A stretch of DNA of 64,000 nucleotides from Thermoproteota archaeon (lineage in GTDB: Archaea; Korarchaeota; Korarchaeia; Korarchaeales; Korarchaeaceae): contig JAOZFN010000014.1 of NCBI GenBank assembly GCA_027492205.1, positions 1-64,000 on the forward strand, written 5' to 3'. Shown in pieces: positions 52,165-64,000 of the stretch (position 1 is its first letter; each line of letters starts with the position of its first letter). The translations under genes and the position numbers were made by a program. The notes under the pieces are model-generated. The model was not told the origin of the DNA, searched no databases, and was given only the letters and a program-made list of their open reading frames with translations.

Positions 52165-54297
52165 TCAATTCGGTCCCCCGGGAGTAGCCGCCCTGAACCG
52201 CCAGGTGTCGGATCCGTCCGGAACCCTCTGCCAGGTGCGGCCGTCATCCCGAGTGTCCCTCATCAGTATGGTGAAGTCGACGAGCTTCCCCCTGCTGTCT
52301 ATAAGCTGGACGCACTCATTTCTGTTGTCCAGCCACCTGCCAGAGGGGAGGAAGACGTAGTACGGCTGCCACGGCCAGATTATCGCGAACGGAATCTCCC
52401 GCTCCGCCGGCTCTCCGTGGAGCGCCACGACCCTCCACCCCCGGATGATGACCGGGTACCAGTTTGGATTGTACAGCTCCACCCACTCACCGTCCGCGTC
52501 CCCCCCTTCTGGGTTGAGCTCCACCTCGTTCACGTACACCAGGTGACTCGGCCTCTGCACGACGGCGTACATCCTCCACGCCGCGGTCCCCGACTCTGTG
52601 TCTCCGTCGGTGAAGTGTATCAGGAGGGCCCCCTCGTGAGTCCCGGGGGACGCCGAACCGGCCTCTATCCTGAACGTCACGGCGGCATATCCTCCCGGGG
52701 CTATGGTGGCCTCTCCCACCTTTCCGGCATCCCTCCTCCAGACGAGGGTACCGCCCACCCTCACCTTGTAGATCAGGTCGACCATCTCGCCTGTCGGCTC
52801 GGCCCAGACGTACTGGGTCTCGTCGTCGTAATTCACAAGAACCACTATTCCGTTCCTCACGCTGACCTCGCCCTGTCCAACTATCCCGAGGTCGATTAGT
52901 ATCTGACCGTCGGTGACGTTGCTCCAGTACCGGTCGCCCGTGGCCACGTTGGCCCCCCCTGGGAGGACTATTGAGACCCGCCCTGAGAGTCCCCAGACGC
53001 CATACTCGCTCGCGCTCGCGTACCCTGAGGAGGCCAGCAGTGAGAGGGCGACCAGAGCGACCGCCGCTAGCTTCACTTCCCCCGCCAGCCTCAGCTCCGA
53101 CCTGACCCTGGGATGAGCCCGCCTCCCAGTCATCTCCTCGAGATCTCTCACTATCTCTGCGAGAGTTATCACCTCTTCGTCGCTGAGCCTTCCCCTCGCC
53201 GCCGCAAATCGCCTGGGCAGCTCCTCAAGCATCTGCTCCAGGACGTCTCCCTTTTCCCTGTAGAGGAGCAAGAAGACAACGGGAAGAGCGGAGATAAGTG
53301 CTACGACTAGCGAGTTACCAAAGATTATTCCCGCGAGGGGGTCTAGGTGGGAGAGTCTCTCGAGGGTCGAGTCCGGCAGGATCATGCCGAAGGTGACGCT
53401 CCATATGTGGATCTTCCCACCGAGTTTGACCACACCCTCACTCTGAGGGGCCAGAACGGGCACCCTGAGTTCCACCCTCCCCCCGGCCGGGACGCTGACC
53501 ACCCGCGCGGGCAGCTCTACCATATCCCAAAGCTCTCCCTCCGGGCTCAGTACGGCGGTCGTCGGAAGCATTCCGTCGTTTTCTACCGTTATAGTGAGGT
53601 TCGCCGACCCGCCCGGGGGAAGCGCCACGCTGGTGCCCATCCCCACGGACTCTCTGAGCCTCGGATCCACAATAACCGTGAACCCGACGACGTCGCTGTT
53701 CATCACCCCGAGGATCCCCATCATGACCATCGCCACGAGGACTGCCATCAGCACGCCCGCACGGCCTCCCCTCTCCTTCCTCTCGAGGATTGAGGGTCCG
53801 ATCAGCAGTCCCATGACCACAGCGGATGTCGCGAACAGGCCCGCCGGGTTCGTGAGCACAGACCTCAGCCCGGGACCCAGGTAGATGGCCAGGTAGCCCA
53901 CCCTAGGTACCTTGATCGGCCGACCGCCGAGCGAAAGGGCCCTCCCCCTGACCTGAGAGATGGGGGTGTACTCCACTCCGCATGCCTCCTGATCCGTCAG
54001 CTCGTTCGCATCGCCCTTCGTTACGATACCCTGGTGCGTCACTTCGACGACCCTGTGGAGGACCTCGTACCCGTTGCAGATCCTGACAAGCACTATGTCC
54101 CCCACCTCGACGCCCTTAATGGGCCAGACCACCACCAGGTCTCCCCTCTGAAGGGTGGGCCTCATGGACCCCGAGGTAACGACGCGGAGGGGGTACGGAA
54201 CGCCCAGGAAGGTGGAGGCGATGAAAAACAGAGAGAGGGCGAGCGCGCTCAGGAGGGCCGCATCAGCAGCCACCCTCAGAGCGCGCCGCCAGGTCAT
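52165..54297 (-). CDS. Signal peptidase I (SipW/Sec11 type) fused to TasA-like and lamin-tail domains
   Basis: 710 residues. N-terminal S26B signal peptidase: membrane helix, RVVTSGSMRPTL (catalytic Ser44), RGDLVVVW, NGYEVLHRVVEV (His81), VTKGDANELTD. Then more membrane helices, an Ig-like domain (SANLTITVENDGMLPTTAVL), another TM, a second export-type helix (AVALVALSLLASSGYASA), a TasA/DUF1102-like domain (VSIVLPGGANVATGD...VNYDDETQYVWAE) closely resembling the protein encoded just upstream, and a C-terminal lamin-tail domain (YVNEVELNPEGGDADGEWVELY). Enzyme, probable fibre-like domain and cap in one chain is unusual. Confidence 0.8.
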   Translation of the reverse strand: MTWRRALRVAADAALLSALALSLFFIASTFLGVPYPLRVVTSGSMRPTLQRGDLVVVWPIKGVEVGDIVLVRICNGYEVLHRVVEVTHQGIVTKGDANELTDQEACGVEYTPISQVRGRALSLGGRPIKVPRVGYLAIYLGPGLRSVLTNPAGLFATSAVVMGLLIGPSILERKERGGRAGVLMAVLVAMVMMGILGVMNSDVVGFTVIVDPRLRESVGMGTSVALPPGGSANLTITVENDGMLPTTAVLSPEGELWDMVELPARVVSVPAGGRVELRVPVLAPQSEGVVKLGGKIHIWSVTFGMILPDSTLERLSHLDPLAGIIFGNSLVVALISALPVVFLLLYREKGDVLEQMLEELPRRFAAARGRLSDEEVITLAEIVRDLEEMTGRRAHPRVRSELRLAGEVKLAAVALVALSLLASSGYASASEYGVWGLSGRVSIVLPGGANVATGDRYWSNVTDGQILIDLGIVGQGEVSVRNGIVVLVNYDDETQYVWAEPTGEMVDLIYKVRVGGTLVWRRDAGKVGEATIAPGGYAAVTFRIEAGSASPGTHEGALLIHFTDGDTESGTAAWRMYAVVQRPSHLVYVNEVELNPEGGDADGEWVELYNPNWYPVIIRGWRVVALHGEPAEREIPFAIIWPWQPYYVFLPSGRWLDNRNECVQLIDSRGKLVDFTILMRDTRDDGRTWQRVPDGSDTWRFRAATPGGPN

Positions 54298-54331: not shown

Positions 54332-54898
54332 TTAACTCTCCGGACTGCCGGGGCTGGACGGGGTGCCGCTCGCGCCCTGCTCCATGCCCTGCATCTGTAC
54401 CGTGAACGCCTGGTCGGATCCCAGCGGGGCCGTCGGGCCTATGCTCAGCATCACCCCGACGGTACCAGTCTCATCGCTGTCAAGTGTGAGCGGGTCGCTC
54501 TGGGTTATCTGGGTCCACGAGCTCCCGGTCCACTTGTAGAACGTCAGGCTCACCCCGCTGGGGAGCCCACTCGTCTCGAACCAGAAGACCCACGTCTCGT
54601 CGTCGTAGTTGGTCACGTTGAAGGCAGCCATGGCCTTGAAGGTCATCCCCCTCGCCCAGGGACCGAAGTCGCACTCGATCATGCTGGAAGAGTTGACGTA
54701 GCAGACGTTGTGGGCCGAGGCGCCGGGGCCTTTCACCGTGTCCAGGCCGGGTATTATCGCAATGTTGGCGCTCTGCGGGGCTACTATGCTGACCCTGGCC
54801 CCGATGCCCGCCTGCATGTACTCGTAGGCCCTGACTCCCACCGAGAGCGTTAGCATCAGGAAGGTGAGGGCCAGCGCGGCCCTTCTCCAGTTGGCCAT
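54332..54898 (-). CDS. TasA-like (DUF1102-type) secreted fibre protein
   Basis: 188 residues from ATG 54898: signal peptide (RRAALALTFLMLTLSVGVRA), then EYMQAGIGARVSIVAPQSANIAII, two Cys (NVCYVN, MIECDFG) likely disulfide-bonded, FNVTNYDDETWVFWFETSGLPSGVSL, and an Ala/Ser/Pro tail. The pattern (TM signal, VSIV..SANIAI, NYDDET) is that of TasA/camelysin-like archaeal pilins and DUF1102 proteins. Adjacent signal peptidase fusion is downstream by 34 bases in the same operon, like sipW-tasA. The frame is open further upstream but in AT-rich non-protein-like sequence. Confidence 0.75.
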   Translation of the reverse strand: MANWRRAALALTFLMLTLSVGVRAYEYMQAGIGARVSIVAPQSANIAIIPGLDTVKGPGASAHNVCYVNSSSMIECDFGPWARGMTFKAMAAFNVTNYDDETWVFWFETSGLPSGVSLTFYKWTGSSWTQITQSDPLTLDSDETGTVGVMLSIGPTAPLGSDQAFTVQMQGMEQGASGTPSSPGSPES

Positions 54899-55408
54899 GG
54901 CCAACACCGCTATACTGTTTAGCCCACCTCCTCTATTAATGTTGGCACCTCTGCTTCTATTGCAAGCAATTGACTTGAAATTCATGCGATATACCGGGCA
55001 TTCTCCCCCATGGAGATATGTTTGAACAATATCTTTAATTTCCTCCGATTGATTTTCATTTTCTCTCATATTAATCAAAACATCTTTCATAAATTGGGTA
55101 TTAAAGTTTACTGCGTGCGGATCTGCAGGAGGCGAAGCTCAGGAGTGAGAAGAGTTACGGAGGTTCGCTTCCCAACTCGGGGAGCCTTGGAAATCGCCTC
55201 AGCCTGTACGTCTTCTCTATCCTGGGCTCTGACCGATCCCCTCTCGCCAAGAATCTCAGATAGGGACTTCAACTCGGTGTAGGAGGAGAAGAGGGCGCGG
55301 GAAAACGTGGTGGAGAATCGTTCAAAGGACTAGACCTCTCATACCCTTCCTCTCGGGCGAGTACGGCAGAGGTAATTAAAATACCGAATGTGTGCTTAAG
55401 AGTTTAAG
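54899..55408. other. AT-rich intergenic region between TasA-like and glycosidase genes
   Basis: 54930-55110 is much more AT-rich than the window average. ACATTAATAG (about 54934-54943, minus) is a candidate TATA box for the TasA-like gene, with GAGGAGGTG nearby. For the plus gene, AATTAAAATA (55374-55383) lies 26-35 bases before ATG 55409 and sits inside GGTAATTAAAATACC, whose ends are inverted (GGTA/TACC). No gene seen. Confidence 0.5.
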
Positions 55409-57274
55409 ATGAGGCCCACTGGGCGGGCGGCGGACAGGGTGGTGATCCGCCGCCCCATCGTCTTTCTCCTCCTCTCAGGGCTGATGCTCCCAAACGCTCT
55501 CGCGGCCGCCGGAGGTCCACACTCTGGCCGAGTTGTGGTCGGCTGGCGACCCAGAAAGCTCCTCTTCTATTACGGATACCCCAGTCTGTTCAACGGGGCC
55601 GGCGGGAATCTGGAGCGGGCTGCCGCCCAGTTCGACCGCTACGACATCGTGGTCCTAGGGGCCGGCCTCGAGGACCCGGCCCACCCCCAGCACCAGGCCG
55701 CTTCAGCGGTCATAGGACTGAGCGAGGCGCAGTTCTATGGGTACGTCCCGCTTACGCTGCCGATCGGAGAAGTCTGCGAGAGGATAGACGAGTGGGCCGA
55801 CATGGGGGTCGCGGGGGTGTTCCTCGACGAGGGCGGGTACGACTACCTTGCGCCGAGGCTGGGGGGCATCCTGCGGGCCAGGATGCACCAGGTCGAGGCC
55901 GTCCGGTGTGCCAGGGAAAGGGGGCTGGCGGAGGCCCTGAACGCCTGGAACCCCGCAGACGTGCTCGCGTCCTCCCACGGGGAGCCCCCCCTACCGCTCG
56001 GGGAGGGAGACGCGGTGCTGATCGAGAGCTTCGTCTACGGCGCGGGGGAGACTAGGGAGGAGTACCTCTGGCACGTCGACGAGTACGCCCGAATGAAGGT
56101 GAGTGGAGGCCCGGAGTACTGGTGCCTCGTCACCACGGGGGCGGCGAGCGAGCACGAGAACCGACTGGTGGGGTACGACGCCCTGACCTACGCTGGAGAG
56201 ATCTGCGACGCCGTGGCAGTTCAGGAGGACCTTGGGGAGGACTCTACAGTGTTCTACGCGTTCGCCGAGCGGGAGGGAGCGCCCGGATGGCGGAGGATCA
56301 GGGGAATGACGCTGGCCGCCTACTGGGTCGGCGACTTCGACAATCGGACCGAGCTAAGGATCGTGCTGGAGAGGGTCAGGGGCATGTGCCTGAACACGAT
56401 AGCGATTTCTCCCTACTGGGCCACTCCCAACCTGCGATCGACCGAGATAAGGCCGACGGAAGTCACCGTGAGCGACGACGACCTTCGGGCCCTCATCAGG
56501 ATGGCGAAGTCCCTCGGGTTCCGGGTCATGCTGAAGCCCTCCCTGATAGTCGAGACGGGCGAGTGGTTCGCCCTCCTTGATCCGGTGGACAGGGACGCTT
56601 GGTTCGAGTCCTACAGGAGGTTCCTGCTCCACTACGCCGAGATCGCCCAGGAAGAGGGCGTCGAGTATCTGGTGGTGGAGGTGGAGCTCAGCTCGATGGT
56701 CTCAGACGAGAGGTGGTTCGGGCTCATCGACGAGGTTCGGGCCGCGTACTCCGGCCTCATAGGGTACGCCCAGCCGCAGGGTGGGGAGTTCAACCCCCAG
56801 GAGGCCCTGCCCGTGTTCGCGGAGGGGGTCGACTTTATCGGGATAGACGCCTACTACCCCCTGCCCTCGGGGAACCTCTCCGAGATCGCGGGGGCCTGGA
56901 GGGAGATTCACCTGAGGAGGATAGAGCCGCTCGGGCTCCTGTTCGGGAAGCCCGTGGTGTTCACCGAGATAGGCTACAGGAGCGTGGTCGGGGCCGCAGA
57001 TGCCCCGTGGGACTGGCGGTCCGACCTGCCGATGAGCGAGGAGGAGCAGGCCCTCCTCTGGAGGGCCTTCCTGGTGGCCGAGGAGCCGCTCGTAGACGGG
57101 TTCGTCTACTGGGCCGAGACGAGCGGCGAGTGGGACCCGTCTACCGACAAGGGATACTCGATCCTCTACAAGGAGGCTGAGCTGGTTGTGAGGGGGGCGG
57201 CGTGCGGGGGACAGAGACCTCGAGGCAGACCGAGTGTGTACAAATCGAGGTCTTTCGGGTTGTTCCCGCTCTAG
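55409..57274 (+). CDS. Secreted two-barrel glycosidase-like protein (Spherulin-4/GH114-like plus GH113-like)
   Basis: 621 residues. Signal peptide (RRPIVFLLLSGLMLPNALAAA). N-terminal barrel (about 45-280): LLFYYGYPSLFN, QFDRYDIVVLGAGLEDP, VAGVFLDEGGYDYL and DAVLIESFVYG resemble spherulin-4/GH114 (Pel-type hydrolase). C-terminal barrel (about 285-590): TIAISPYWATPN, LGFRVMLKPSLIVETGEWF, VEYLVVEVELSSM, YAQPQGGEF, VDFIGIDAYYPLPSG, FGKPVVFTEIGYRS, resembling GH113/TIM-barrel mannanases with Glu residues at strand ends. Both barrels show candidate acidic catalytic residues. Likely trims or releases exopolysaccharide; the GT2 synthase is encoded convergently next door. Confidence 0.7.
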   Translation: MRPTGRAADRVVIRRPIVFLLLSGLMLPNALAAAGGPHSGRVVVGWRPRKLLFYYGYPSLFNGAGGNLERAAAQFDRYDIVVLGAGLEDPAHPQHQAASAVIGLSEAQFYGYVPLTLPIGEVCERIDEWADMGVAGVFLDEGGYDYLAPRLGGILRARMHQVEAVRCARERGLAEALNAWNPADVLASSHGEPPLPLGEGDAVLIESFVYGAGETREEYLWHVDEYARMKVSGGPEYWCLVTTGAASEHENRLVGYDALTYAGEICDAVAVQEDLGEDSTVFYAFAEREGAPGWRRIRGMTLAAYWVGDFDNRTELRIVLERVRGMCLNTIAISPYWATPNLRSTEIRPTEVTVSDDDLRALIRMAKSLGFRVMLKPSLIVETGEWFALLDPVDRDAWFESYRRFLLHYAEIAQEEGVEYLVVEVELSSMVSDERWFGLIDEVRAAYSGLIGYAQPQGGEFNPQEALPVFAEGVDFIGIDAYYPLPSGNLSEIAGAWREIHLRRIEPLGLLFGKPVVFTEIGYRSVVGAADAPWDWRSDLPMSEEEQALLWRAFLVAEEPLVDGFVYWAETSGEWDPSTDKGYSILYKEAELVVRGAACGGQRPRGRPSVYKSRSFGLFPL

Positions 57275-57332
57275 GCCCAATCTCAAGCCTGGTCCCGGTG
57301 GATCGGCCGCCGGAGAATCAGGGGGGCCTTCC

Positions 57333-58700
57333 TCACGGCCTCCATCCAACGACCTCCCTAGACAAGAATCTGAGGAGAGACTCCAGCTTGAGATATGAGA
57401 GCCACAGGGAGTAGGCAACGTGGTAGGGAACGGTCCAGGGAATGAGATCCGCCCTCCCCTTCGACGCCAGAACCGTCGACGTCACGATGATCCCCGGGAC
57501 GTGCTGGAGCGGTAGGAAGGCGAGGAAGGCCAGAGATATCACCTTGAGCGGCACGGATCCCAGGAGCAGACCGACTCCGGTGAGCCTCGAGATCAGGAGG
57601 GCGAGCGGCACGGCCACGTATCCCAACACGCCCAGCGAAGGGAGTAGATACTCGACCAGGATCAGGTACGCGAAGAGGGCGACTCCCACGGCCCCCCGCC
57701 TCAGGCTGAGTATCATCTCCGGGTACTTGGAGAGGACCTGCAGCCCCCCGACGAACCACCTCACCCTCTGGGACCTCAGCTCCCGAGCGCTCCTCACCGG
57801 CTTGGTCCAGGCGACGGCCTGGGGCGCGTAAACCACCCTGTAACCCCTCCTCCAGGTCGAAAGGGACACGTCAAAGTCCTCCGCAACGGTGTCAGGTGGA
57901 ATCAGACCCATCTCCCTCAGTAGGGACCCCTTGTAGATCCCCATGGCCCCCGGGGTTATGAGCACCCACCCCATGTAGTCCTGGACCGTCTTCCCGAGCC
58001 AGTAGGAGGCGGCGTACTCTATCTCCTGCATCCTCTGCAGGAAGGAGGGCCTGATCGACGGGGCCACCCTCACGTCCCCGGAGGCGGCGCCCACGTCCTC
58101 AGCTCGGAGGGCGTCAACGGCCGCCCGGGCCGCCCACCTGGACAGCACGGTGTCCGCGTCCGTGGTTATTATCACCTCCCCCCTGGCCGATGCTATGCCC
58201 AGGGTCAGGGCCTCCGCCTTTCCCCTGTTCTCGGGGTTGACCAGAACCCTGGCCCCAGCGGCGCGAGCGACTTCGGCCGTTGAGTCCGTGGATCCGTCGT
58301 CCACCACTATGACCTCCAGCCTGTCTTGGGGGTAGTCCTGCCTGAGCGCGCCCTTGACGGCCAAACCGACGGAGAGTTCCTCGTTGTAGGCGGGGATGAC
58401 CACCGACAGGCTCGGCGGGTCTCCCCCGTCTTGGATCACGTCGGTGGGGCGGGACCTCACGGCTGCAAGCCAGACCAAGAACAGGAATAGGTAGACGGAG
58501 ACCAGGAACGCCCCGAGGAGGAGGAACAGGGAGATCACCACAAGGCGTACCTGGTCTGGAGGGGCATCCGGGTAGACCAGGGAGACCAGCCACGGGATGG
58601 CCCTGGTCAGGAACACCCCGTGGGCGGCGGTCCCCCCCACGCTGCCCGCGAGGGCAACCGCGTAGACTGCCCTCCTCCTCCAGCGCCCACCAGAGCTCAA
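57333..58700 (-). CDS. Family 2 glycosyltransferase, processive polysaccharide synthase type
   Basis: 455 residues. N-terminal two membrane helices, GT2 domain with LSVVIPAYNEELSVG, VIVVDDGSTDST, VIITTDADTVLS (DxD), the acceptor motif AEDFDVSLSTWRRG and QRVRWFVGGLQVL (QxxRW), and C-terminal membrane helices. This is the arrangement of PgaC/HasA/BcsA-like synthases that polymerise and export a polysaccharide. Last gene of the archaeosortase operon, overlapping the upstream regulator by 4 bases. Confidence 0.9.
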   Translation of the reverse strand: MSSGGRWRRRAVYAVALAGSVGGTAAHGVFLTRAIPWLVSLVYPDAPPDQVRLVVISLFLLLGAFLVSVYLFLFLVWLAAVRSRPTDVIQDGGDPPSLSVVIPAYNEELSVGLAVKGALRQDYPQDRLEVIVVDDGSTDSTAEVARAAGARVLVNPENRGKAEALTLGIASARGEVIITTDADTVLSRWAARAAVDALRAEDVGAASGDVRVAPSIRPSFLQRMQEIEYAASYWLGKTVQDYMGWVLITPGAMGIYKGSLLREMGLIPPDTVAEDFDVSLSTWRRGYRVVYAPQAVAWTKPVRSARELRSQRVRWFVGGLQVLSKYPEMILSLRRGAVGVALFAYLILVEYLLPSLGVLGYVAVPLALLISRLTGVGLLLGSVPLKVISLAFLAFLPLQHVPGIIVTSTVLASKGRADLIPWTVPYHVAYSLWLSYLKLESLLRFLSREVVGWRP

Positions 58701-60139
58701 AGGGCGGTCCCTCCGACGGCCCTCCTAAGGGCGTCGCTCGGGTACAGCTCGGTCAGGCCCCCGACATCCGCGGCGGCGACCGCCCCTATGTCTACCAGCC
58801 ACCTAACCAGCCTGACCACCCTCTCGAGCGGAGCCCCCATCTCCACGGCAATCTCCTCCGGCGTGAGCCCCGGCCTCTCAGAGATGAGGGTCAGCACCCT
58901 CCAGGTGAGCGGGTCGGCGGCCAGGCTCATGGCCAGGACCAGCTCCCTGTCCCTGGGGTGGAACCAGAGCCTCCCGACCCCCCTGACCACCGCCGAGTCG
59001 ATCAGCCCGCAGGCCTCCATGGCTGCCAGCCTGACCTTCGTGGGAATCCTGCACCCCTCACACTCCGCCTCCAGCTCGGGGAGAGACCTCCCAGGGGCGT
59101 CGAGGATCAGGGAATACAGCTTTCCACTGGACCTGTCGGCCCTGAGCACCTTCCTCAAGATGGGCCTCAGGGGCATCAGGGCTGCCACGCCCGCGGCGTA
59201 GGGCGCGTAGCCGACCAGCGTCGCGCCCAACAGGGCCGCGTAGGATAGGCTGGCGAACCACGCCACCCCCCTGGGAGTCGCGATGGACGCCGCCGCGGAC
59301 CTCACCAACGCCGCCGCCCTGTCCCACGCTGGCGGGGGTCTGGGCACCACGCCCTCCTCGGCCGCCGAGAGAGCGCGACCGACCAGCTCCAGGATCCCCC
59401 CGGATTTGACCTTCGACTCCACGACCGGGACCACCGGGTTGAAGGCCAGCGTGAGCACCGCGCCCCCGCCAGAGCGGCAGGCGACGATGGCGGGTGAGCC
59501 GTCCGCTTCTGACGTGGCGAGGACCGAGCAGTTGGAGGATGGTCTCAGGTTCGCCCACCACAGGGAGGGGTCGTAGCTCGCCGTCACCGACCCCCCTACC
59601 TCGTGGATAGTCACAGTCCCGGTGCCGGTGTTCAGCGAGGTGAGCTCAACTCCGGTCAGCTCCTCGAGAGGGGGAGACCAGCTCTGCGAGTAGGTGTTTA
59701 GGCCCACCAGCAGGACCCTCCCCTCGCCCACCACCCGGCCGAGGGCTCGAATCTCCTCCTCGGTGATTGCCCCGCCCTCGGTCCAGGGGACGTTCAGGTC
59801 TGGGATCCAGATTTCGGAGAAGCCTCTCAGGAACCAGGTGTCAGACAGCCTCTCCCTCTCTTCGTCCGCCCCCGAGTACTCAGAGCCGAGGTAGAGGACC
59901 TCAACCCTGATCTCGCGACCCTCTGCCTCAGACAGCGAGCCGGCCAGCTCCTTCCCGAACCTGACGTCCTCGACGTCTGAGGCTACCAGGAGGACGCTGG
60001 GGGGAGGGGTCTGCCCACCCCTGGTCTCACTTCCCCCCTGGACCGCAGAGCCGGGGAGAAGCGCGCCCGCGACCAGGAGCACGGAGGCGGAGAGGGCGAT
60101 AAGCAGAAGAGGCCGAGGGGCTGACTGGGATCTGGACAA
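58697..60139 (-). CDS. Membrane-anchored regulator: extracellular glutamine-amidotransferase-like domain, TM, winged helices
   Basis: 480 residues. Signal peptide (PLLLIALSASVLLVAGALLPG), a Rossmann/GATase-like domain outside (VLLVASDVEDVRFGKEL, EIWIPDLNVPWTEGGAI, GEGRVLLVGLNTYSQS, GGGAVLTLAFNPVVPV), TM (FASLSYAALLGATLVGYAPYA), then two cytoplasmic winged helices (SGKLYSLILDAPGRSLPELEAE; TWRVLTLISERPGLTPEEIAVE). No catalytic Cys triad is evident, so the outside domain probably senses rather than catalyses. It is a paralogue of the protein at 61448-62773. Confidence 0.7.
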   Translation of the reverse strand: MSRSQSAPRPLLLIALSASVLLVAGALLPGSAVQGGSETRGGQTPPPSVLLVASDVEDVRFGKELAGSLSEAEGREIRVEVLYLGSEYSGADEERERLSDTWFLRGFSEIWIPDLNVPWTEGGAITEEEIRALGRVVGEGRVLLVGLNTYSQSWSPPLEELTGVELTSLNTGTGTVTIHEVGGSVTASYDPSLWWANLRPSSNCSVLATSEADGSPAIVACRSGGGAVLTLAFNPVVPVVESKVKSGGILELVGRALSAAEEGVVPRPPPAWDRAAALVRSAAASIATPRGVAWFASLSYAALLGATLVGYAPYAAGVAALMPLRPILRKVLRADRSSGKLYSLILDAPGRSLPELEAECEGCRIPTKVRLAAMEACGLIDSAVVRGVGRLWFHPRDRELVLAMSLAADPLTWRVLTLISERPGLTPEEIAVEMGAPLERVVRLVRWLVDIGAVAAADVGGLTELYPSDALRRAVGGTAL

Positions 60140-60210
60140 CTGAAAGCACCTCCCACAGGCTTCAGCCCCTCCCTCGCCCTCTTGAGGCAGGATGGAGCGA
60201 AGGAGGCGGC

Positions 60211-60903
60211 TCAGCGCTGGTCAGCCGCCTCCAGCCTCCTCCAGCCCAGTGGGGCCAAAATCAGTCCCAGGACGGCAGCCACGAACAGGGGGACCTCCGG
60301 AACCTCCTGCCCGTCTATCTTCACGCTATTCGCCGTTCCGTCGGAAGCAATCACTCCGTTCCCCGGGTACAGCCTGTCCCACTTGATCGCGAACTGCTCA
60401 ACGTAGGTGACGGAGATCTCGTCGCCCTCCTTGAGGCTCCCGTCTTCGGTGCTCCAGGTATAACCGTCGACCGTCAGCGTGGTGGCACCCCCCACCACAA
60501 CCTTGACGTTGTAGCTGTGCTCGACCCCACTACCGGTGCAATCGACGTCGAGGTAGCCACTCACCTCCTTCCCGCCGTTGACGCTCACCGACCCGTAGGC
60601 GCCTCCCTCCACGTGCAGCGCGCCCTGACTACCCGAGATGTACCCGTCCTTCCCCACCCGCTCAACCGTCACTGTCACGGAGTCCCCGGGGTTCACCTCC
60701 ACGGGCTTCCCGCTCACCTTTATGGTGCAACTCCCCGCCTTCTCGATTGTGGTCTTTCCTGTCACGAAGTATTTGTTGGATGGCTTCATGGCTTCGAGCC
60801 GGGCGCTGTACGTCTGCGCCTCTGCCATGGCCAGGGAGCCCACCAGCGCCGCCAGCACCAGCAGGGCCAGGCTCCTCCGGACGGACTTACCCAACCTCAT
60901 CAC
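60211..60903 (-). CDS. Secreted protein with CTERM-type sorting tail, probable archaeosortase substrate
   Basis: 230 residues. Signal peptide (RRSLALLVLAALVGSLAMAEA), beta-rich Gly/Val/Thr body with two Cys (GSCTIKVSG, DVDCTGSG), and a tripartite C-terminus: short motif EVPEVP, hydrophobic helix (LFVAAVLGLILAPLG), then basic tail (WRRLEAADQR). This is the exosortase/archaeosortase recognition pattern. It overlaps the archaeosortase gene by 4 bases (GTGA), making it the dedicated substrate. GGAGGTGATG precedes the start. Confidence 0.75.
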   Translation of the reverse strand: MMRLGKSVRRSLALLVLAALVGSLAMAEAQTYSARLEAMKPSNKYFVTGKTTIEKAGSCTIKVSGKPVEVNPGDSVTVTVERVGKDGYISGSQGALHVEGGAYGSVSVNGGKEVSGYLDVDCTGSGVEHSYNVKVVVGGATTLTVDGYTWSTEDGSLKEGDEISVTYVEQFAIKWDRLYPGNGVIASDGTANSVKIDGQEVPEVPLFVAAVLGLILAPLGWRRLEAADQR

Positions 60904-61451
60904 CCCTCATCACCTCCACCAGGCTCTCGGGGCCGTCCATTAAAAGGAGTCTGGCGCGCGGCGCTAACGGTCCCCCCGGTCGGCCCCCTCGCGGGGAGGA
61001 CGTCTCGGAGCCAGAGCCCCCACATGGTGATCGCGACGACGAGCAGGAGCGCCCCGCCGACGACCCTGTGGGCCAGCCCCACCGCCACCTCCCCGAACGC
61101 CTTGTAGGCCAGCAGGGTGGCGGCGAGCCTCGCCAGGTTGGCCAGGTACAGGGCGGCGAGGCCCTCCGCAACCCCCCAGGCCTTGGCCCTCCACCCGACC
61201 CCGGGGGCGGGCGCGATGAGCGAGGCGTAGAGGGTCATGGACATGGCGCCCGAGCACTCAGCCGTTATGACTATGGACGGCCCCCCTCGCAGGGTCACGA
61301 TCCCGGGACCCGTGACGGCGGACCCCACCCCGACCAGGGAGAGCAGCCAGGCCGTGTGTTTCGCCTCCACGAGCAGTATCGCGTCAGAGGACCTCCAGAA
61401 GGCCAGTGTCAAGCCGGCCATGGCGACGCAGAAGCCGGCGACGTATCTCAG
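60900..61451 (-). CDS. Archaeosortase/exosortase-family transpeptidase, possible CTG start
   Basis: 183 residues, about five membrane helices. The family's catalytic set is complete: Cys66 in TAECSGAMS, Arg108 in ANLARLAATL and His128 in GLAHRVVGG. Expected to cut CTERM-tailed proteins and join them to a membrane or cell-surface anchor. ATG 61421 is the first standard start; CTG 61451 adds RYVAGFCVA, which completes the first membrane helix, and overlaps the upstream stop as CTGA. Next gene is its probable substrate. Confidence 0.82.
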   Translation of the reverse strand: MRYVAGFCVAMAGLTLAFWRSSDAILLVEAKHTAWLLSLVGVGSAVTGPGIVTLRGGPSIVITAECSGAMSMTLYASLIAPAPGVGWRAKAWGVAEGLAALYLANLARLAATLLAYKAFGEVAVGLAHRVVGGALLLVVAITMWGLWLRDVLPARGPTGGTVSAARQTPFNGRPREPGGGDEG

Positions 61452-62773
61452 GACGAGCCGTCCGCCCCCTGCCTGCCGAGCAGCCAGCGCTCGATCACCT
61501 CCCTTGCCCAGTCCGATAGGGACACGCTGACGGACCTACCGTTCCTGCTGACGGTCACTACGCCGTGAAAGGCCATGACGTCCACGTTCCTCTTCACGGT
61601 CGGGGCCGAGACGCCCAGCCTCCTGGCGAGCCCCCTCACGCTCTCCGGACCGTCGAGGAGTAGGGTCTCTGCCAACCTCCTCCTCACCTCGCTCGCGAGC
61701 AGGCTCCTCAGTCGGGCCTCGTTGGCCATCTCGGGCGGGTAGTATATCCTCCTCCCCAGAAACACGGTGGAGGACACCAGCCCCCTGCTCTCCAGGACGT
61801 AAAGGTGCCACCTGACCGTCGACTCCGGCTCCCCCAGCCTCGACGAGATCTCCCTCAGGTTCAAGCCGGGGTGCCTCCTCAGCAGGCTGAAGATGGCCGA
61901 CCTCTTGCCGTCCCTGAGGGCGTCTGCCCTACGTATCCTAACGACCAGGGACGCGATCAGGGCCTTCCCCCTCCTGGATCTCCTCACCAGCTCCCCCGTG
62001 CCCAGCCCTCCGGCGAGGGCGACGGCGCCGATCAGGGCGGGTGGGGCCGGGTGAGGCCTGGACGTCGCCCTGAGCAGGAGCTCCTCGGTCACCCTCACGA
62101 GGTCCCTGTCTCCAGAGTCCCAGTAGGGCCAGACCGGGTTGAAGGCCAGGGCGAGCACCGCCCCGCCGCCGCACCTCGCCAAGACAGCAGCGGGGCCTCC
62201 GTCTCTGAACCTCGCGAGCACCTCCCCGTCGGTGAACTTCAGCTCGGCTCGACCGTAACTGGCCGGATCGTATTCCACCCCTCCCAGGCCCCCGCTGGGA
62301 CTGAACTCAAGCTCGATCAAGTCGCCCCCGGTTTTGGGGAAGTCCCAGGGGAGTGTCAAGAGTCCCTCGAGCGCGCCCAGGTAGAGGAGGGTGTTTGCGT
62401 CCGCGACCAGCAGGCCGCCCCCCTCGACGTACGACCTGATCGCCCGGGCGACCTCGGGCGGCATGTCCCTCCCGTTCCAGTCGAGGATCACCAGGGCGTT
62501 TGGACGCAGGGAGGACCAGTCTTCGATGTCGCCCGCCCAGGCGACGCGGAGTGGGATGCCGAGAGATTTCAACTCGATTGCGAACCTAAAATCTGGCTCG
62601 TCCAGGGCCACAAAAAGCAGTTCACCGCCGACGGCTGAGGAGGCGCTGATCCCGGCCGACAGCAGGCCCAGCAGGATGCCCAGCGAGAGCGCCCTCGCCA
62701 GCCCCTTCCGGCCGATGGAAATCGGCACAAGATCTGTTGCGGCGGCGCTCTTTTTATTCGTTTTCGCCGCCAA
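61448..62773 (-). CDS. Membrane-anchored winged-helix regulator with extracellular GATase-like domain
   Basis: 441 residues; first gene of the archaeosortase operon. Basic N-terminus and signal-anchor (LARALSLGILLGLLSAGISA), outside Rossmann-like domain (GELLFVALDEPDFRF, NALVILDWNGRDMPP, YVEGGGLLVADANTLLYLG, GGGAVLALAFNPVWPYW), TM (PPALIGAVALAGGLG), then two winged helices inside (GKRSAIFSLLRRHPGLNLREI, STVRWHLYVLESRGLV; ESVRGLARRLGVSAPTVKRNV). Same layout as 58697-60139. Probably regulates this operon in response to an envelope signal; inference from topology and position. Confidence 0.72.
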   Translation of the reverse strand: MAAKTNKKSAAATDLVPISIGRKGLARALSLGILLGLLSAGISASSAVGGELLFVALDEPDFRFAIELKSLGIPLRVAWAGDIEDWSSLRPNALVILDWNGRDMPPEVARAIRSYVEGGGLLVADANTLLYLGALEGLLTLPWDFPKTGGDLIELEFSPSGGLGGVEYDPASYGRAELKFTDGEVLARFRDGGPAAVLARCGGGAVLALAFNPVWPYWDSGDRDLVRVTEELLLRATSRPHPAPPALIGAVALAGGLGTGELVRRSRRGKALIASLVVRIRRADALRDGKRSAIFSLLRRHPGLNLREISSRLGEPESTVRWHLYVLESRGLVSSTVFLGRRIYYPPEMANEARLRSLLASEVRRRLAETLLLDGPESVRGLARRLGVSAPTVKRNVDVMAFHGVVTVSRNGRSVSVSLSDWAREVIERWLLGRQGADGSS

Positions 62774-62867
62774 TCGTACTCAGCGAACGCCGAATCCCGG
62801 CGAGTGGGGAAATCGGATCGGGCCGGGGAGACCCCACCAATGGACAGATTGGCGGGGGAGTGAGTCG

Positions 62868-63617
62868 TCATATCTTCCCCGTCAGCCTGGCCCTGAGGGT
62901 CATCCTCTTGAGCTCGGCGATCAGGCTCCCCGGCCTGATGTGCTTGGGGCACACCTCGGCGCACGCGTAGACCTGGTGGCACCTCCAGACTCCGGAGGCC
63001 TCGCTGTCTGCCACCAGGAGCCTCAGGGGCTTCACGTCGTCCCTCTCCCTAGAGTCCACCGCGAACCTGTACAGCTGGGTCAGCGCCGCGGGCCCCAGGA
63101 AGAGCGGGTCCGTCGCGGCCACCGGACACGCGGAGACGCAGGCCCCGCACCATATGCAGTCGGAGGGGGACTTGTACCTCTCGAACTCCATTGGGGAGAC
63201 CCTTGGCTCTCGCACGCCCTCCCTCGGGTAGAGGTAGGGCATTACGGCCTCCATCTGCCTCAGGAACGGCTCTATGTCCACGACGAGGTCCTTGAGCACC
63301 CGGAAGTGGGCCAGGGGCTCCACCTTCACCCTCCTGCCCAGGTCCGCGATCTGGGTCTCGCAGGCCAGCCTCTGCACCCCGTTTATCATCATGGCGCAGG
63401 AGCCGCAGATCTTGGCCCTGCAGCTGTACCTGAACGACAGGGTGGGGTCGAGCTCCTGCAGGATGTAGAGCAGCCCGTCGAGGACCGTCATGCCCCTCCG
63501 GTAGGGGACCTCGTACTCCACGTAGTAGGGGGCCCTGTCCCTCCTAGGGTCGAATCGGAAGACTGTGAACCTGACGGTCTCGCCCTCCCGAACCCGCCCG
63601 GGCATTCGCCGACTCAC
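62868..63617 (-). CDS. sdhB: Succinate dehydrogenase/fumarate reductase iron-sulfur subunit
   Basis: 249 residues. N-terminal plant-type [2Fe-2S] domain SCRAKICGSCAMMINGVQRLAC, then two cluster motifs DCIWCGACVSACP and CHQVYACAEVCPKHI for the 4Fe-4S and 3Fe-4S/4Fe-4S centres. Transfers electrons from the flavoprotein to quinone. Follows the SdhA gene by 7 bases. Start GTG 63617 or ATG 63605. Confidence 0.95.
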   Translation of the reverse strand: MSRRMPGRVREGETVRFTVFRFDPRRDRAPYYVEYEVPYRRGMTVLDGLLYILQELDPTLSFRYSCRAKICGSCAMMINGVQRLACETQIADLGRRVKVEPLAHFRVLKDLVVDIEPFLRQMEAVMPYLYPREGVREPRVSPMEFERYKSPSDCIWCGACVSACPVAATDPLFLGPAALTQLYRFAVDSRERDDVKPLRLLVADSEASGVWRCHQVYACAEVCPKHIRPGSLIAELKRMTLRARLTGKI

Positions 63618-63624
63618 CCCCTCC

Positions 63625-64000
63625 TCAGTACCTCCTCTCCGTGGGCTGCCACTTGGTGATCACCACCGGCTTGTAGTCGAACTCCGGCCCGTCCGGCGTG
63701 TAGAAGGCCAGCGTGTGCTTAAGCCATTTCTCATCGTCTCTCTTCGGGTAGTCCGTGCGGTAGTGCCCGCCCCTGCTCTCCGTACGCCTCAGCGCGCCCT
63801 CGGCCACCACCAGCGCCACGTCGAGCATCCCCTCAATGATGAGGGCGTCCAGCAGGCCCTGATTGAACGGCCCGGGCGGAGCCGGGACACCGGCACTCTC
63901 CCGATACTCCTTTCTCAGCCTCCTGATGGTCTCCACACCCTTCCTGAGACGCTCCTCATCCCTGAAGATCCCCACGTAGTCCCACATGGCCTGCTGCATG
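63625..64000 (-). CDS. sdhA: Succinate dehydrogenase/fumarate reductase flavoprotein, C-terminal part
   Basis: Incomplete: 5' end is beyond the window. The 124 visible residues are the C-terminal helical and capping region of SdhA: QQAMWDYVGIFRDEERLRKG, NQGLLDALIIEGMLDVALV and the conserved ESRGGHYRTDYPKRDDEKWLKH ending VITKWQPTERRY. The invariant RGxHxRxDYPxRDD segment binds FAD/substrate. Directly upstream of sdhB. Confidence 0.93.
   Translation of the reverse strand, partial: MQQAMWDYVGIFRDEERLRKGVETIRRLRKEYRESAGVPAPPGPFNQGLLDALIIEGMLDVALVVAEGALRRTESRGGHYRTDYPKRDDEKWLKHTLAFYTPDGPEFDYKPVVITKWQPTERRY

Follow-up and report, generated by a model that had tools for sequence, protein, structure and literature searches.

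A putative archaeosortase-glycan module with paired membrane-anchored regulators in an archaeon of the order Korarchaeales

Five adjacent genes in the stretch of archaeal DNA analysed here (64,000 nucleotides, hereafter the window) encode an archaeosortase, one matching secreted substrate, a GT2 glycosyltransferase and two membrane-anchored regulators, and we consider it probable that they constitute an archaeosortase-glycan module, dedicated and transferable, that is analogous to the bacterial XrtG systems and has two sensors of its own. They form a real, well-bounded unit whose content and pairing are conserved across distant archaea, and the role proposed for it below is a prediction. The enzyme superfamily and the name ArtF were known before; what is new is the empty site of the block, its distant recurrence, the paralogy of the two regulators and the apparently dedicated tail of the substrate.

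The five genes and their products

The sequence-only reading had placed five minus-strand genes at 57333-62773, and five open reading frames (ORFs) do occupy that place and strand, with every frame open. The order of transcription is reg1 (62773-61448), archaeosortase (61421 or 61451 to 60900), CTERM protein (60903-60211), reg2 (60139-58697) and GT2 (58700-57333). The features of the locus are:

61448..62773, minus strand: reg1, membrane-anchored regulator (HTH_20 and ArsR-type HTH_metalloreg matches; alignment with cassette homologues)
60900..61451, minus strand: archaeosortase (TIGR04178, Pfam EpsH), 173 aa from ATG 61421 or 183 aa from CTG 61451
60211..60903, minus strand: secreted beta-rich CTERM substrate with tail QEVPEVPLFVAAVLGLILAPLGWRR (N-terminal hydrophobic segment, tripartite C-terminus)
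58697..60139, minus strand: reg2, second membrane-anchored regulator, by profile comparison a full-length paralogue of reg1
57333..58700, minus strand: GT2, a PgaC/cellulose-synthase-like membrane glycosyltransferase (PF00535, PgaC_IcaA, motifs)
62749..62758, minus strand: AATAAAAAGA, a TATA-like candidate promoter that precedes the in-frame GTG 62728 by 30 nt
57280..62865, no strand: block missing from the closest relative (empty site; edges approximate)

With ATG, GTG or TTG starts, the archaeosortase and substrate genes overlap by 4 nt, as do reg2 and GT2, while gaps of 26 nt and 71 nt separate reg1 from the archaeosortase gene and the substrate gene from reg2. Overlaps had been claimed at three of the four junctions; two hold with these starts, but the third, between reg1 and the archaeosortase gene, appears only if CTG 61451 is assumed to be the start. 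The first ATG of the archaeosortase frame sits within the first hydrophobic segment, and the frame stays open for another 38 codons ahead of it; the in-frame CTG would restore this membrane segment and give a CTGA overlap with the reg1 stop. GGAGG-like ribosome sites were seen by eye ahead of the substrate, reg2 and GT2 starts. In reg1, the in-frame GTG 62728 is a possible alternative start, and the sole stretch within 57201-63000 with nine A+T in ten positions (AATAAAAAGA), a putative promoter and consensus look-alike, would fit a leaderless start there. The sequence TTTTAAT lies at 60939-60948, some 45 nt ahead of the substrate gene; from this AT-rich site and the 71-nt gap an internal promoter is possible, perhaps for the substrate alone. 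One transcript spanning all five genes is a prediction. No Rfam elements were found in 55000-64000. The block is flanked by a fumarate-reductase-B-like gene (62868-63617), its name read from sequence, and by a convergent GH113-like gene (55409-57274).

Elsewhere in the window, the gene at 52165-54297 encodes a signal peptidase I domain fused to a long surface protein of several domains, in which a lamin-tail domain is weakly matched, and is adjoined by a gene for a small secreted protein (54332-55090), and a ribonucleotide reductase large subunit at 41-2449 carries an intein with a LAGLIDADG domain.

The second gene of the block encodes a membrane protein, judged from its predicted membrane segments, that passes the cut-off of the exosortase/archaeosortase superfamily model (TIGR04178, 43.1 bits; cut-off 23) and that of Pfam Exosortase_EpsH (30.8 bits; cut-off 25.7). 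Numbered from the CTG start, Cys66-Ser-Gly, Asn105..Arg108 and His128 are invariant in the alignment with cassette relatives. An archaeosortase with a complete Cys/Arg/His set had been claimed, and the profile searches place the protein inside the superfamily with C66, R108 and H128 all retained. Every named-subfamily cut-off is missed, the best scores being those for XrtX (56.3; cut-off 170) and ArtF (50.8; cut-off 150), and we read the enzyme from these matches as a divergent ArtF relative. It is the single archaeosortase of a 1.94-Mb genome that is 96% complete, and C-terminal cleavage by it is predicted.

The protein that it would cleave has the parts of a CTERM sorting signal, namely a signal segment, a short motif, a membrane helix and a basic end, and in the tail IDGQEVPEVPLFVAAVLGLILAPLGWRR the motif is followed by the membrane segment and then by the Arg end. 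A genome-wide search for codons for P-E-(F/L/I/V/M)-P-(L/F), limited to that motif, returned 45 PE-x-P-L/F coding sites, fewer than a reversed-pattern control (60). Of the 45, the window substrate alone has a membrane segment and then Arg-Arg between the motif and the stop, which confirms the CTERM tail noticed by the sequence-only reading. Since a tail of this build occurs in one protein only, beside one archaeosortase, sorting looks dedicated to a single substrate. Among the Pfam and NCBIfam profile matches of the substrate there was no named CTERM model. A low-confidence AlphaFold model (pLDDT 65.6, built without relatives) has 14 strands, and a fold search of the PDB with it gave no significant match.

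The two regulators flank this pair. reg1 comprises an N-terminal membrane segment, an extracytoplasmic sensor domain, a second membrane segment (clear in homologues) and two C-terminal winged helices, matching HTH_20 at 51.5 bits and the ArsR-type HTH_metalloreg model at 63.7 bits (cut-off 55). The winged helix of reg2 lies under the Pfam cut-off in the window copy and above it in a homologue (L073). Of the two membrane-anchored winged-helix regulators claimed earlier, reg1 is upheld by strong tandem matches, and reg2, whose winged helix is weakly matched in the window copy, by its homologue. Profile comparison pairs the two with a probability of 99.7 over 353 columns, and on this evidence they are full-length paralogues, with about 29% protein identity; further members of the reg2 family were found in G133 and the Thermococcaceae (below). 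The sensor of the L081 homologue matches Glyco_hydro_42M (28.0 bits; cut-off 25.8) and the regulators have weak PDB matches to beta-galactosidases; by these matches the extracytoplasmic domain is similar to the trimerisation domain, GATase-like in fold, that GH42 enzymes contain. An AlphaFold model of reg1 built without relatives is weak (pLDDT 40.9). A ligand and target promoters for the two proteins, including control of their own operon, are predicted. We also observed a 38-nt direct repeat, 89% identical, between the sensor domains of reg2 (59433-59470) and reg1 (62133-62170), for which gene conversion is possible.

The last gene encodes a GT2 that matches PF00535 at 97.9 bits and has membrane segments and the conserved motifs D, DAD, ED and QRVRW (D, DxD, ED and QxxRW) of processive GT2 enzymes, in agreement with the synthase family named before. 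PgaC_IcaA (TIGR03937) is its top NCBIfam match at 149 bits, short of the cut-off of 422. Among solved structures the highest score is that of 6yv7 (79.8 bits vs 62 bits for cellulose synthases), which we take to be the Pyrobaculum enzyme of Gandini 2020, with a minimal cellulose-synthase-like fold. For the Pyrobaculum enzyme, confirmation of the predicted mannosyltransferase function failed (PMC8993221). A glycan-making GT2 is a safe reading of these matches; a matrix polysaccharide as its product is predicted, and is not a safe one. The lead of 6yv7 over cellulose synthases, the missed PgaC cut-off and the extra membrane protein of the Thermococcal cassette (PF10131, which presumably belongs to the GT-C group) would all suit a lipid-linked-glycan (N-glycan-type) transferase in place of a polysaccharide synthase, so that the cassette would decorate or anchor a glycoprotein and make no matrix. 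Yet QxxRW, typical of processive synthases, is present in all compared copies and PgaC remains the top NCBIfam match, and we hold this reading as a serious but tentative one. It is a variant of the module explanation, and both can hold together.

Gain or loss as one block, and recurrence in other archaea

The closest relative, a genome of the same genus (G001), contains an empty site. A comparison that took in the window and the following 20 kb shows that locus L243 (G001:C40) matches 62866-71956 at 97.5% DNA identity (9.1 kb) and 55494-57194, on the GH113-like side (1.7 kb), at 95.5%. In G001 the fumarate-reductase B gene is followed by about 120 bp and then by the GH113-like gene, with no five-gene block, and a genome-wide search found no archaeosortase. 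Because the empty site matches the edges of the block, exactly these five genes were, by this alignment, gained or lost as one. Third-position GC content (GC3) is 0.84-0.86 in the block, against 0.92 in fumarate reductase B and 0.86 in the GH113-like gene; being slightly lower than the first and level with the second, it cannot separate gain from loss. Of 25 genomes in the order, 1 has a clear reg2 of the cassette kind, which favours gain by the window genome over loss by G001. Among the repeats listed there were no terminal repeats bounding the block, and thus no sign of a transposon. Elsewhere in G001 (L020 7676-15999) an intact reg1-like regulator lies near a gene for a surface protein of >2100 aa. 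The syntenic place in the window genome (L239 3494-3904) has a broken copy of the regulator, and a gene of that size was not seen there. Turnover of surface loci between the two species seems to be rapid.

TIGR04178 is present in 213 of 394 sampled archaeal genomes. We searched 100 archaeosortase loci, hand-picked with short frames preferred and hence not a random sample, with the window proteins as single phmmer queries, and reg1, reg2, GT2 and archaeosortase occurred together in five (L073, L081, L091, L101 and L104). A reg2 profile gave matches in 6 of all 394 genomes and, within the family to which G256 belongs, in 10 of 94. A neighbouring GMP synthetase in that family matches 1wl8, which we take to be a Pyrococcus horikoshii protein, at 380 bits, and we infer the family to be the Thermococcaceae. 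Nine loci there have the order reg2, GT2, reg1, archaeosortase, substrate, with a PF10131 membrane protein adjacent in eight; one locus, L104, has its GT2 frame broken into two parts. The Thermococcal enzyme is the ArtF of NCBI (TIGR04293; cut-off 150), with 357.6 and 245.5 bits for two Thermococcaceae copies. In G133, of another archaeal family, the order is reg1, archaeosortase, GT2, reg2, and the filter applied found no adjacent tailed substrate. One protein query for the PF10131 partner in the window genome found none.

The same gene order was thus not recovered elsewhere, but the four non-substrate genes do stand together in the Thermococcaceae (nine full cassettes) and in G133, and through every rearrangement among these and the window the regulator-partner pairs (reg1 with archaeosortase, reg2 with GT2) are kept. 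Because the set recurs in distant archaea and the empty site matches its edges, it goes beyond chance, and on both grounds the claim that the genes form one unit is sustained. The window proteins are 23-37% identical to the Thermococcaceae and G133 copies (archaeosortase 24-29% against the Thermococcaceae), and across the four proteins the pairwise identities are correlated, with r of 0.956-0.992. Genes inherited together would be expected to show this, but shared species history contributes and would also produce it.

The secreted protein of the Thermococcal cassettes (L081 7095-7826 and eight other loci) ends in VPEFPFL plus about 12 residues. This tail keeps the motif and is without the membrane segment or Arg/basic cluster usual in sorting signals. 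VPE(V/F)P near the C-terminal end is common to the window and Thermococcal secreted proteins despite undetectable homology of their bodies; a relationship between the bodies was considered and is unsupported, with an hhalign probability of 2.6 and an alignment confined to the tail region. Between the secreted proteins of L187 and L186, the body is 27% identical and the last 22 residues are 95% identical, as if bodies were swapped onto a fixed tail, which would then track the cassette.

A second type of locus occurs in the same phylum. Three genomes, G022 (MAG QMVU01), G023 (MAG QMVZ01) and G024 (JAOZFL01), have a longer, different archaeosortase beside a GT2, with CTERM tails in two of them (SEMPLFLVPI...RKRR and PETPPLIFIP...RR). 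Scanning relatives' contigs with the window archaeosortase alone gave no match, and scanning them with the alignment from these three genomes matched only the same three. Like the window they place an archaeosortase beside a GT2, but they have bactofilin/hexapeptide-like proteins where the window has two regulators (loci L016 8430-13655, L017 9448-12911 and L018 1-3998). All four archaeosortase loci found in the phylum (29 genomes searched) therefore adjoin a GT2. With 24 GT2 matches at E<1e-20 in 25 genomes of the order, or about one per 1.6 Mb, chance adjacency within 10 kb is <1% for each. Among the 100 loci a strong synthase-type GT2 is present in six (L073, L081, L091, L101, L104 and L107), so the archaeosortase-GT2 link is lineage- and subtype-specific and not general. 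Uniqueness of the arrangement to the window genome is ruled out by these three loci and the Thermococcal ArtF cassettes. The suggestion that an archaeal counterpart is undescribed survives in part: ArtF is already a named family, but in the literature searched we found no description of its operon or neighbourhood (an earlier mention is possible) and no paper pairing 'archaeosortase' with 'ArtF'.

In G450 and on one G455 contig (L185 9946-12671 and L190 2858-4893), reg2 and GT2 stand as a pair with no archaeosortase, which suggests a portable two-gene sensor-glycosyltransferase unit. Together with the variation of order and spacing among lineages and the 71-nt gap between the halves in the window, this would suit separate functions, in which an anchoring trio (reg1, archaeosortase and substrate) and a reg2-GT2 pair travel together with no shared pathway. 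We think this unlikely, as the halves are joined in the nine Thermococcaceae loci, in G133 and in the window, the two regulators are paralogous, and the empty site of G001 shows the block to come or go whole. That the archaeosortase-like protein and the tail are a relic, or the enzyme a general one sorting many proteins of the genome, is suggested by the patchy distribution within the order but is highly improbable given intact catalytic residues, open frames throughout and one PE-x-P-L/F tail of its kind.

Known systems and a proposed role

The nearest known system is the ArtF (TIGR04293) operon of the Thermococcaceae, which shares with the window the superfamily, size and invariant Cys/Arg/His of the enzyme, the reg1, reg2 and GT2 neighbours and the VPE-x-P motif that the neighbouring secreted protein carries. 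It differs in that the window enzyme lies under the ArtF cut-off, the gene order is rotated, the membrane segment and Arg end of the window substrate are canonical, and the PF10131 gene was not found in the window genome. The XrtG system of Gram-positive bacteria combines a single exosortase with a single CTERM protein and two glycosyltransferases (PMC12854382). The window likewise has one exosortase-type enzyme and one CTERM protein with an adjacent GT2, but scores only 29.3 (cut-off 102.75) against the XrtG exosortase model (TIGR03110) and 80.3 (cut-off 363.95) against that of its glycosyltransferase (TIGR03111), and the XrtG operon, as described, is without paired membrane-anchored regulators. 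In bacterial PEP-CTERM/EpsH loci an exosortase homologue lies near exopolysaccharide genes with the regulators PrsK/PrsR (PMC1569441). Dedicated regulators and the vicinity of exopolysaccharide genes are points of likeness, whereas those systems have many substrates per genome, belong to outer-membrane bacteria and use two-component regulators in place of the one-piece membrane-anchored winged-helix proteins of the window. ArtA-dependent maturation in Haloferax needs archaetidylserine-type genes (PMC7157517), so that the acceptor to expect by default is a lipid. ArtA/PGF-CTERM and, as predicted, the window have in common that an archaeosortase processes a C-terminal tail; the haloarchaeal genes, however, are unlinked, with no operon GT2 or regulators reported. 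The GT2 of the cassette brings a glycan or glycolipid into view as acceptor but does not prove it.

We favour the module explanation on the strength of the superfamily assignment with its catalytic residues, the one archaeosortase with one tail, the recurrence of the four genes in the Thermococcaceae and G133, the kept pairs, the correlated identities, the tail that tracks the cassette, the empty site and the XrtG parallel. Against it stand the missed subfamily cut-offs, the unrelated substrate body, the Thermococcal tail without a membrane segment, the tailed substrate of G133 and the PF10131 gene of the window genome that were not found, the weak HTH of reg2 in the window copy, and the 71-nt gap and AT-rich site that would permit an internal promoter. 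Because the unit is present here, absent in the closest relative and reordered in Thermococcus-type archaea, its distribution suggests that the five genes work together at the cell surface. In such a module, the archaeosortase would cleave a single protein, secreted and beta-rich, at the PEVP motif, removing the C-terminal membrane segment, and the new C-terminus would be joined to an envelope acceptor, either a lipid or a glycolipid. The GT2 would make or extend a surface or lipid-linked glycan with which the substrate works. reg1 and reg2 may read an envelope signal through their extracytoplasmic GATase-like domains and then set expression, reg1 being tied to the archaeosortase half and reg2 to the GT2 half.

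A stronger form of the module, in which anchoring is self-contained, the GT2 builds the lipid-linked or polymeric glycan that receives the substrate and the paralogous sensors balance the protein and glycan halves, we regard as quite unlikely. If true, it would amount to sortase-type anchoring to sugar in archaea, with two products matched and the block moving between lineages.

The archaeosortase literature that we searched deals mostly with the general ArtA/PGF-CTERM system of haloarchaea. The bactofilin-like proteins tied to an archaeal sortase system merit a separate look. The compact module described here, in which a single archaeosortase and its substrate are joined by a GT2 and a pair of sensors, makes the attachment target of a dedicated archaeosortase testable, and with it the coupling of glycan synthesis to protein anchoring in archaea; genetic tools exist for Thermococcus-type archaea. 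Its one-piece membrane-anchored regulators may also offer a route to an envelope signal that archaea sense.
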